Positions 71-2,578 of a stretch of 64,000 bases of DNA are shown piece after piece. The notes under the pieces were generated by a model. It saw only the letters and a program-made list of their open reading frames with translations. It was not told the DNA's origin and searched no databases. A program made the position numbers and the translations under genes. Each line of letters opens with the position of its first letter. The stretch's first letter is position 1. Origin of the DNA: Humidesulfovibrio mexicanus (GTDB taxonomy: Bacteria > Desulfobacterota > Desulfovibrionia > Desulfovibrionales > Desulfovibrionaceae); assembly GCF_900188225.1 (NCBI RefSeq), contig NZ_FZOC01000010.1:1-64000 (forward strand). The letters run 5' to 3'.

Positions 71-150
<80 letters not shown>

Positions 151-167
151 CGTTGACGGCGATTTGG

Positions 168-380
168 CTATTTGTGCAGCAGGGCGAGTGCCCTGTCCTT
201 TTGCCCAGGGTAAAGATCCGCAGGCACTTTGTCACGGCCAAGGCTTTTGCAGACCATGTAGCGTGCGCAACTTGCGAAGTCGCCCCTGCAGTAGCGAGCT
301 TTCGTGATCTCGGCCGTGCCAGGCTTGTCAGCCATCTTGTCATTGAAAAAGAGACACTTTTCTATCATCTCACAAGACAT
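168..380 (-). CDS. Small conserved cysteine-rich protein, function unknown
   Basis: The product is 70 residues with five cysteines at 3, 9, 31, 38 and 44, in the arrangement CEMIEKC, then YCRGDFASC and MVC. This spacing suggests metal or Fe-S binding, but no function can be assigned. The start is the ATG at 378-380 because AGGAGG lies at the right distance upstream (cAGGAGGaacatcATG); the frame is open further upstream but without a good ribosome binding site. There is no signal peptide or membrane segment, so it should be cytoplasmic. It follows dapA's terminator on the same strand and is probably a separate unit. From memory, similar short proteins with this Cys pattern occur widely in sulfate- and metal-reducing deltaproteobacteria. 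Confidence 0.72.
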   Translation of the reverse strand: MSCEMIEKCLFFNDKMADKPGTAEITKARYCRGDFASCARYMVCKSLGRDKVPADLYPGQKDRALALLHK

Positions 381-468
381 GATGTTCCTCCTGTTGATTT
401 CGATTGGTGACGAGGGCGGGTGTATTGGGCATAGCATAGTTCCAGATGAAGGGAATGGGCGCAGAGAA

Positions 469-535: not shown

Positions 536-1414
536 CTAAATCAGGGCGCTCGCCTTGAGAATGGTTTTCAATTGTTCCAGGTGGGCGCTTTCCATGGGAA
601 CAAGGGGAAGGCGGAATTCTGGGCCCATTTTGCCCATGAGCGACAGGGCGGTCTTGACCGGAATGGGGTTGGTTTCAATGAACATGGCCCGATTTACAGG
701 CATCATCTCCAGGTTGAGCGCCTGGGCCCTGGCCGTGTCGCGTTTGTTGAAAGCGGCGATCATGCCGGACATCTTGGCGGGCATGACATTCGAGGTGACG
801 CTGATGGTCCCGTGTCCGCCAGCTGCAAGAAGGGGCAGCACGGTGAAATCGTCGCCAGAGAGCACAGTGAAGTCACGGCCCATGATTTCGATAAGCTCGG
901 TGCCCTGCTTGATGTCGCCAGTGGCCTCCTTGCACCCGATGACCTCGGGCACTGCCTTGGCGATGCGGGCGATGGTCTTCGGCATCACGTTTTGACCGGT
1001 GCGGCCAGGAACGTTGTAGAGGATAAATGGCATTGACGCTTCGGCTGCAAGGGCTTTGAAGTGGGCCACCAGGCCGTCTGGAGTGGGTTTGTTGTAGTAG
1101 GGGGTGATAATGAGCGCTGCGTCGGCCCTGGCGTCCTTGGCGAGTTGCACCAGCTCGATGGCCTCGCGGGTGTTGTTGGACCCAGCCCCGGCGATGACCG
1201 GCACCCGACCTTTGACTTGGTCCACGCAGATCTTGATCACCTGCCCTTGTTCAGTGTGCGACAGCGTCGCAGCCTCGCCGGTGGTGCCGCAGGGCACAAC
1301 GCCGTCGATTCCCTGCTCGATCTGCCATTCGATGAAGGCCCTGTAAGCATCTTCGTCCACGGCGCCGTTTTTGAACGGCGTCACCAGTGCGGTAAACGCG
1401 CCGCGAAAGCTCAT
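536..1414 (-). CDS. dapA: 4-hydroxy-tetrahydrodipicolinate synthase
   Basis: DapA condenses pyruvate with aspartate semialdehyde, the first step specific to diaminopimelate and lysine synthesis, in the cytosol. The 292-residue product has the usual length. The GTTGE loop is at 43-47, Tyr133 lies in the LYNVPGRTG motif, and the Schiff-base Lys162 is in GCKEATGD. The start has a strong AGGAGG upstream. The gene begins 13 bases after the stop of the predicted selenoprotein gene, so the two are probably cotranscribed. dapL and lysA at the other end of the window complete much of the same pathway. Confidence 0.98.
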   Translation of the reverse strand: MSFRGAFTALVTPFKNGAVDEDAYRAFIEWQIEQGIDGVVPCGTTGEAATLSHTEQGQVIKICVDQVKGRVPVIAGAGSNNTREAIELVQLAKDARADAALIITPYYNKPTPDGLVAHFKALAAEASMPFILYNVPGRTGQNVMPKTIARIAKAVPEVIGCKEATGDIKQGTELIEIMGRDFTVLSGDDFTVLPLLAAGGHGTISVTSNVMPAKMSGMIAAFNKRDTARAQALNLEMMPVNRAMFIETNPIPVKTALSLMGKMGPEFRLPLVPMESAHLEQLKTILKASALI

Positions 1415-1427
1415 TCAATCCTCCTTC

Positions 1428-2306
1428 CTAGTCGGTGCTCTTGGTGTGCATAAGCATGAGCATCTGCTGGTCTTCCGTATACTGGTCAGTAAGCCCGTTA
1501 AGGGTCATACGAACATTTTTCCCTTCCGTCCATTTGAAAGTGGGATTCCCCAGGGGAAGATCAAGCACTTCCAGGCACAACACAGCTTTCCCTTCAGGGT
1601 AGGACCGCATCCAGGCGGTTTTCCCTCCGTCGGCAAGCATTCCCGCCACCCCAACCCCTGGACCGGATCCGAGCAGGACGTGGGGGAGCGGGCCGTTCGC
1701 CTTCAATAATTCCTGCTCCCTTGCATATCCCCAGGGGCTCATGGCGACAACGATTTGCGCGGTTCCGCGCAGTTCGCGAACCGCATGTTCAATTCCGTGG
1801 ATGAGGTTTTGCGGCAGGCCCCGTGCCCCTCTTGGCAGTTCTGGAAGAACAAGCAGTCCGACTGTGACCTCACCCGCCTTGAGCACATGCTTTTCCAGAC
1901 GGTCAGAACCACGCCAGTACGGGCGTGGCTTCACCCCGGACCGTGCCAGGACCGTACGCTCGGATGGCGTGACGACAAGCACGTCGTGGCGGAGCAGGTC
2001 GAAGGCATCGGCCATGAAGGCCAGCCGCTGTCGCGAGGGGAGCCGAGCTGGTTCGTATTGGACGAACTCGTACCCTCCTGCCAGGAAGAGCACAGGGCTC
2101 CCCTTGGTGGCGTTTTGCCTGAAGGCTTTCTGTGCGCTGGCCCGCCGGGCCAATCCTCCGGTGAGTTTCCCCCCTCAGGATGGGCAGGGACGGACTTCGC
2201 CTTCGGTATTGGCACAAAAAAGCAGGGTGAGCCGAGGCCCACCCGCTATGGCCTGCGCTGGCATGGCCAGCAACAGGGCTATTATCAGCATCAGCCTGGA
2301 AATCAT
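1428..2306 (-). CDS. Predicted periplasmic selenoprotein (CxxU), degenerate UshA/metallophosphatase-like
   Basis: Reading from the ATG at 2304-2306 gives a signal peptide (about residues 1-21, cleavage after AIA), then ANTEGEVRPCPS, then an in-frame TGA (2175-2177), then GGKLTGGLARRAS and an open frame to the TAG at 1428-1430. Decoded as selenocysteine, the product is 292 residues with a C41-P-S-U44 redox-type motif. Both sides are in one frame, so a frameshift cannot explain the UGA. A hairpin lies downstream at SECIS distance. The region after the motif resembles the N-terminal metallophosphatase fold of UshA-type 5'-nucleotidases (FLAGGYEF, VVAMSPWGY, VLLGSGPG where family members have LDAGD, VALSH and IVGGH), but the metal ligands are gone, so it is probably not a phosphatase. 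The start overlaps the IHF-like gene's stop (ATGA). The alternatives are a TGC-to-TGA mutation or a sequencing error. Confidence 0.75.
2138..2177 (-). promoter_or_regulatory. Candidate SECIS: UGA plus downstream hairpin
   Basis: On the minus strand the UGA (2175-2177) is followed by 22 bases and then a 6-bp stem TGGCCC/GGGCCA with the loop GGC (plus-strand 2138-2152). The loop begins 28 bases after the UGA and with G. As I recall the published bacterial SECIS model, it wants a stem-loop within about 16-37 bases of the UGA and a G in the first two loop positions. This hairpin satisfies both. Confidence 0.55.
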
Positions 2307-2578
2307 TCGTTGATGAACTCCTTGAGTTCCTTGCCGGGACGGAAGAAGGGCAGGCGCTTGGGATGCACCTCAACAACGGTTCCGGTTTTGGGATTGCGGC
2401 CGGTGTAGCCCTCGTAGTCCTTGACCTTGAAGCTTCCGAAGCCGCGGATTTCAACCCTGTCGCCAGCGACCAGGGCGTCCTTGATGGCGTCGAAGAATGC
2501 GCTGACGACCTTGGTGGCGTCATCAATGTGCAGTTTCTTGTCTTCGGCCAGGGCCTTGATGAGTTCACTCTTGTTCAT
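2303..2578 (-). CDS. HU/IHF-family DNA-binding protein (IHF-beta-like)
   Basis: This is a 91-residue histone-like protein with the complete family fold: an N-terminal helical dimerisation part, the GFGSFKV strand, the DNA-intercalating arm around GRNPKTG, and the tail FFRPGKELKEFIN. The sequence after the arm and the tail look more like IHF-beta than HU. A second, HU-like gene lies at 13854-14126. The start is MNKSELIKAL with GGAG upstream; the longer frame has no support. Its TGA overlaps the ATG of the next gene (ATGA), so the selenoprotein is probably translated by coupling. A sigma-70-like promoter lies about 80 bases upstream. Confidence 0.93.
   Translation of the reverse strand: MNKSELIKALAEDKKLHIDDATKVVSAFFDAIKDALVAGDRVEIRGFGSFKVKDYEGYTGRNPKTGTVVEVHPKRLPFFRPGKELKEFINE

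Follow-up and report, generated by a model that had tools for sequence, protein, structure and literature searches.

A UshA-like gene with an in-frame UGA in Humidesulfovibrio mexicanus: a putative CxxU selenoprotein of the catalogued family NF049981

An in-frame TGA in a gene for a UshA-like protein of Humidesulfovibrio mexicanus (Desulfovibrionaceae) raises the question of whether the codon is read as selenocysteine and what the resulting protein might do in the periplasm. The gene lies in the window, i.e. the whole stretch of DNA that was analysed, which comprises 64,000 nucleotides (contig NZ_FZOC01000010.1 of assembly GCF_900188225.1, positions 1 to 64,000). The best overall explanation, with a probability of roughly 0.8, is that the locus carries a genuine selenoprotein gene of family NF049981 and that its product is exported and most likely functions as a metal-free periplasmic oxidoreductase. 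The selenoprotein part of this explanation, which is drawn from sequence comparisons, is close to certain. The NCBI family model already matches the UshA-like protein, and confirmation is useful because the protein would drop out of the annotation if the UGA were taken as a plain stop.

The gene and its in-frame UGA

Translation of 2306-1428 (minus strand) gives 43 residues (ending RPCPS), the TGA, 248 codons and a TAG stop in a single frame, which bears out the description in the earlier note of a signal peptide and CPS followed by an in-frame TGA and a 248-codon open frame, with no frameshift. The ATG (2306-2304) shares the bases ATGA with the stop of the upstream HU gene, and 13 bases separate the stop of the putative selenoprotein gene from the start of dapA (1414); the overlap and the adjoining dapA are thus as first described. 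The features of the locus are as follows.

1428..2306, minus strand: putative UshA-like selenoprotein gene (NF049981 match), 292 codons with UGA as Sec, plus the TAG stop
2241..2306, minus strand: signal peptide, residues ~1-22 (MISRLMLIIALLLAMPAQAIAG), judged by eye; helix 2-18 in the predicted model
2175..2186, minus strand: C41-P-S-U44 motif; C41 and position 44 are invariant in the 78 aligned rows (Sec written as C)
2175..2177, minus strand: in-frame UGA, candidate Sec codon, residue 44
2138..2152, minus strand: SECIS-like hairpin TGGCCC-GGC-GGGCCA found on folding, 6 bp, with the loop GGC at 2144-2146
2303..2578, minus strand: upstream gene for an HU-type DNA-binding protein (Pfam PF00216; gene order)
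536..1414, minus strand: downstream dapA (Pfam PF00701; gene order)

The assembly to which the window belongs (3.52 Mb, 15 contigs) encodes SelA (547.6 bits), SelB (381.1 bits), SelD (320 bits) and a tRNA-Sec (86 bits) with the anticodon TCA as called by ARAGORN. The genes whose absence the earlier note had named as an argument against selenocysteine, selB and selC, are therefore both present, as are selA and selD. The selD of this genome (L172, G000:C3:126342-127268) bears one in-frame TGA of its own and is therefore probably itself a selenoprotein gene.

Family membership

The protein matches the NCBIfam model NF049981, 'UshA-like (seleno)protein family 2', with 277.7 bits (cut-off 140; E 8.7e-83), residues 26-286 aligning with positions 1-261 of the 262 in the profile. 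By this near full-length match, and by the CxxU that it has in common with the family, the gene is placed in a catalogued selenoprotein family; no difference from the family was found. The available part of a 2026 review (PMC13188914) lists NF049981 as 'UshA-like selenoprotein family 2', with CxxU and as 'GenBank annotated', and the suggestion that the selenoprotein is new has to be dropped, as the protein scores over the cut-off for this family. Neither that part of the review nor the names of the models mention a function.

Only a partial match (31.2 bits, below the cut-off of 275) was found to a second NCBIfam model, NF041198, 'UshA-like PCGU (seleno)protein'. Related sequences (L105-L107) have PC-x-U followed by GGLARK at the same place, as in NF041198, which differs from the H. 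mexicanus protein in its CxU instead of CxxU; its profile has 519 positions. In 2008 a 'UshA-like' family with CxU was among those listed for marine metagenomes, according to the available part of that study (PMC2398784). Of 395 genomes of the phylum, 153 contain matches to the NF049981 profile (E <= 0.001) but only 6 exceed the cut-off, so there is a wider superfamily, often with one TGA. This superfamily extends throughout the phylum (L094-L107): its UshA-like proteins carry a single in-frame TGA at the corresponding position, and most of them fall short of the NF049981 cut-off and have gene contexts that differ from that of the window copy. In Pfam the only family reported for the H. mexicanus protein at E 10 or better was DUF6505 (E 0.079, below its cut-off), and a phmmer search of the protein against the PDB gave 0 matches at E 1.

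Homologues and the codon at the selenocysteine position

Matches at E <= 0.001 are found in 133 of the 199 genomes of the Desulfovibrionaceae; among the closest named relatives by sequence are records of Humidesulfovibrio and Desulfovibrio sp., with 51-67% identity. In 78 aligned copies from 70 loci, the H. mexicanus copy included, the codon at the Sec position is TGA in 58, TGC in 19 and TGT in one, a ratio (58:20) that is not a rate because 40 of the loci were hand-picked to cover genera, Cys copies or second copies, the other 30 being the best-scoring. Homologues with neither Cys nor Sec at this position, a possibility raised in the earlier note, are thus absent from the alignment, and the proposed CxxU selenoprotein, here CPSU, finds a Sec or Cys codon in every copy. 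A second, overlapping set of 68 matches from 59 loci (20 from the phylum search and 39 named ones) comprises 58 TGA, 7 TGC, one TGT and two fragments of a broken locus (L144), from both of which the place of the codon is missing. In this locus, from a Salidesulfovibrio brasiliensis record, the copy is broken into pieces in three frames, one of the pieces containing a second TGA, which reflects either a frameshift or a draft error.

Among the 126 genomes in the matches listed (of 133), selA is present in 104 of the 113 with a listed TGA copy vs four of the 13 with Cys copies only (Fisher P 1.6e-6, the genomes being related). Nine TGA-bearing genomes show no selA, eight of them 54-93% complete and one (G174) 96% complete. 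One genus (g29) accounts for three of the four Cys-only genomes with selA, and Cys is therefore not explained there by loss of selA. In another genus (g20), selA is absent from seven of the eight Cys-only genomes, the remaining one (G095) giving a weaker match (E 5.9e-51); it is present in the TGA-bearing G158, G166 and G180 but missing from the TGA-bearing G187 (65% complete). Five changes between Sec and Cys are needed on a quick, long-branched tree, at least three of which are forced by well-supported branches.

The part of the gene after the UGA appears, from codon comparisons, to be under purifying selection, with dN/dS of 0.22, 0.21 and 0.16 against L108, L109 and L111, respectively, and 0.16-0.44 over nine comparisons of hand-picked pairs, values which are uncertain because dS is mostly above 1. 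An extra TAA or TAG listed for three matches (G171, G178 and G192) lies outside their frames (L067-L069), which run uninterrupted for 276-277 residues. The H. mexicanus genome has a single copy (profile search up to E 10). Eight genomes of one genus (L048-L055) carry a tandem pair, the Cys copy first and the Sec copy after it; such pairs, together with the Cys-only genera, offer natural material for testing what selenium contributes.

The SECIS-like hairpin

The 6-bp GC stem with its GGC loop, 28 bases past the UGA, was recovered on folding as previously described; by itself it is weak evidence. The bacterial SECIS model given in the available part of the 2026 review (PMC13188914) has a loop of 3-9 nt, a stem of 4-16 bp, a spacing of 16-37, a G within the first two loop bases and an energy of -7.5 or lower. 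The candidate hairpin conforms to this model (loop GGC, 6 bp, spacing of 28 bases between UGA and loop), its energy alone being -9.5 to -10.5 kcal/mol depending on the stretch folded. The same stem arose in 1083 of 20000 random synonymous recodings with the codon usage of the window, however, and a model-conform hairpin of at least six pairs in 1174 of 4000, while four wider stretches folded no better than their shuffles (z -1.4 to +0.6). Single-sequence folds and the hairpin alone were accordingly rejected as proof.

Although the hairpin in one sequence is weak evidence, the comparative evidence exceeds chance. Contexts from both locus sets were merged where the DNA was identical, giving 119 distinct contexts, from which L101 (CxC type, without CxxC) had fallen out; exclusion of L060, for which a wrong Cys pair had been picked out, and a fragment of L144 left 24 Cys rows and 93 Sec rows, 13 of the latter (L094-L100, L102-L107) coming from the wider phylum set. 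The score combined the GG of the loop with those three pairs of the stem that vary with codon choice. Stem and GG loop occur together in 76 of the 93 Sec rows vs five of the 24 Cys rows (Fisher P 4e-8, which is too small because the rows are related). Arg54 is encoded by CGG in 77 Sec rows vs 11 Cys rows; CGG makes up 0.19 of the Arg codons in 14 genes of the window. Paired changes within the hairpin were also seen, with U-A at two pairs in L086 and C-G for G-C in L041. The exact stem or the GG is missing from 17 Sec rows, four of which (L038, L039, L046 and L102) have, by eye, another predicted hairpin with GG opening the loop. The mean fold energy over 48 bases does not differ between Sec and Cys rows (-18.1 vs -18.9 kcal/mol), so that the Sec copies are distinguished by this particular hairpin and not by overall stability.

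These comparisons bear on two readings in which the UGA is not a selenocysteine codon. In a recent pseudogene the UGA would be a plain stop and the frame after it decaying, for which the in-frame stop itself, and nothing else, speaks. The restriction of the codon to TGA or, in the other 20 of 78 copies, Cys, the dN/dS clearly under 1 beyond the UGA and the presence of the Sec machinery make this reading extremely improbable, and the earlier view of the gene as intact agrees with them. A sequencing error, the codon being in truth TGC or TGT, gains some plausibility from the Cys copies elsewhere in the family. Yet in all 12 other genomes of the genus in which the protein finds a match, that match contains a single TGA (two of the 14 have no match), which argues against the misread base that the earlier note had listed as a possible refutation, and the codons of the Sec-type hairpin are present here; an error is every bit as improbable as a pseudogene. 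The in-frame UGA is thus almost certainly read as selenocysteine, judging from the aligned sequences.

Predicted structure and the lost metal site

The AlphaFold2 model, built from 45 sequences, has a pLDDT of 91.4 and a pTM of 0.88. Only at 41-43 does the pLDDT fall under 50 for at least three residues in a row, so that the CxxU loop, located between the strand 26-31 and the helix 48-65, is the worst-modelled part. The best structural match is SoxB (Z 22.6, rmsd 2.7 over 236 residues), followed over the catalytic domain by 5'-nucleotidases up to Z 21.3, with E. coli UshA at about 20, the range across the best 50 matches being 17.4-22.6; CD73 was matched by Foldseek with E 1.8e-11. The model aligns to 36-366 of the 544-residue SoxB chain, and the C-terminal substrate domain is absent from the 292-residue protein. 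The fold is thus predicted to be that of the catalytic domain of the 5'-nucleotidases and SoxB. Against PDB chains the profile of the larger alignment (A1) finds 5'-nucleotidases and SoxB at E 0.002-0.04 and YfkN at 0.76, and also touches unrelated chains (DnaB-like helicase at 0.12-0.23, ROR-gamma at 1.5); that of the smaller alignment (A3) finds 5'-nucleotidases at 0.07-0.94 and syntaxin at 0.9. As these matches are weak, the link to the fold rests on the predicted model.

UshA, CD73 and SoxB share with the H. mexicanus protein the fold of the catalytic domain and a GGxARR motif but differ in having the metal His ligands and the C-terminal domain, whereas the H. mexicanus protein has CxxU. 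The metal ligands of these enzymes, which we take to be Asp, His and Asn, lie in part within the motifs GNHE, SH and SGHTH, opposite which weak profile alignments place spaE, SpWG and sGpGs. No Asp, Asn or His occupies an invariant or nearly invariant column of A1. The proposal that a UshA-like fold has lost its His ligands therefore agrees with the structural match and with the replaced His positions in the weak alignments. In A3, Asn33, Asp108 and Asp209 are nearly invariant; Asp108 and Asp209 are not opposite ligands, while a weak alignment (E 0.94) sets Asn33 against the first Asp ligand of 2z1a (the Asp of NDTH). A polar residue may therefore persist at one former ligand position, leaving room for a remnant of the metal site.

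Proposed function

On the comparative evidence, Sec would be inserted at the UGA by SelB and charged tRNA-Sec (TCA) with the help of the hairpin that lies 28 bases further on, and the product would be exported by means of its signal peptide. The predicted protein would have the fold of the UshA/SoxB catalytic domain without the His ligands and the C-terminal domain, and its flexible C-x-x-U loop, running from strand 1 to helix 1, would adjoin the place of the first metal motif of the enzymes. The most likely role of such a protein would be that of a metal-free periplasmic thiol/selenol oxidoreductase, in which the selenolate attacks a disulfide or an oxidised sulfur substrate, Cys41 resolves the mixed intermediate to give a Se-S bond, and this bond is reduced by some donor. 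We favour this redox mechanism with some reserve, and a periplasmic thiol/selenol redox role is a best guess; the CxxU could also bind a metal or a persulfide. A hydrolase fold without its His ligands and with a Cys-Sec pair, in the periplasm of a sulfate reducer, would be a neat case of catalytic turnover.

The same selenoprotein might instead carry out sulfur chemistry of the SoxB kind rather than disulfide exchange, the selenol replacing the metal centre and acting in the periplasm of sulfate reducers to cleave or carry a sulfane or sulfonate group attached to a polysulfide or a protein thiol. That SoxB is the best match of the predicted model fits this proposal, as do the weak contact of the A1 profile with SoxB (E 0.037), the disulfide-linked complex that SoxB forms with its carrier SoxYZ (title of 4uwq) and the invariance in A1 of Arg55 and Arg234, which could bind an anion. 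The lead of SoxB by about one Z unit says little, however, because the 5'-nucleotidases share the fold, and inspection by eye of the loci whose gene order was examined showed no neighbour resembling a sox gene. SoxB-like chemistry is thus unlikely, if by no means far-fetched, and thiol/selenol redox chemistry is preferred.

Gene neighbourhood and a link to cytochrome c maturation

The gene order is conserved and, where the loci extend far enough, reads lnt, prfB, (GGDEF), ParA-like, HU, the UshA-like gene, (dapF) and dapA. Across 39 named loci and the window, an HU-like cluster is found in 24 of 40 sources, a ParA-like one in 24 and dapA in 21; the neighbours are crude ORF calls, with lnt, prfB and GGDEF named by eye and Pfam applied to dapA, HU and ParA of the window and to one DapF. 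The HU and dapA neighbours do not tell the task of the gene. Some Cys-type second copies (L152-L155) lie near genes whose starts, by eye, resemble those of type IV pilins (such as FTLIEMA, FTLVEMA and FTFLEFS).

In two genera (L149-L151, L170) a Metal_resist-like gene is followed downstream by ccmF, a TPR gene and a paralogue of the UshA-like gene; a metal P-type ATPase (Pfam) then follows in L131 and a gene of similar size in L149-L151. The cassette of heavy-metal-resistance-like protein, ccmF, TPR protein and UshA-like CxxU paralogue, in which Pfam was run on L131 and one gene of L149, was observed in L149-L151, L170, L131 and L132 and looks like a transferable island. The order of the nrf genes is NrfE-NrfF-NrfG, and that of the cassette is similar, the CxxU protein taking the position of NrfF. 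NrfF/CcmH and CcmG resemble the UshA-like protein in having a periplasmic Cys pair, here CxxU, but differ from it in fold, that of CcmG being thioredoxin-like. A position beside ccm genes was seen only for the paralogue in other genomes; the window copy, by contrast, sits between HU and dapA, and the ccmF of its own genome is on another contig. Near that ccmF two CxxC genes were called, a doubtful one of 100 residues (CCCC) and one further off of 343 residues (CRPC).

Cytochrome c maturation was considered as a general role of the family and rejected. Of the 199 genomes, 189 have ccmF, comprising 128 of the 133 with an NF049981-family match vs 61 of the 66 without; the ten that lack it are divided equally between genomes with a match (G030, G049, G052, G135 and G180) and genomes without. 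As ccmF is about as common without the family as with it, a general cytochrome role is unlikely. According to the available part of a study of System I* in sulfate reducers (PMC3601427), CcmG and CcmH are missing from this system, which nevertheless functions without them in E. coli. That the UshA-like CxxU/CxxC protein is a fold-unrelated stand-in for CcmG, CcmH or NrfF, absent from System I*, is improbable, and it could be only auxiliary at the level of the family, because ccmF is as common without it. If the idea were true, the ccmF-TPR-UshA-like cassette would be a heme-lyase module complete in itself, its selenol reductant serving the CxxCH of apocytochromes.

Other features of the window

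A small Cys-rich ORF (MSCEMIEKCLFF...CARYMVC) at 171-401 (minus strand) matched no Pfam family at E 0.001. At 72-150 (plus strand), close to the end of the contig, there is a run of 79 G, which is probably an assembly or sequencing artefact.
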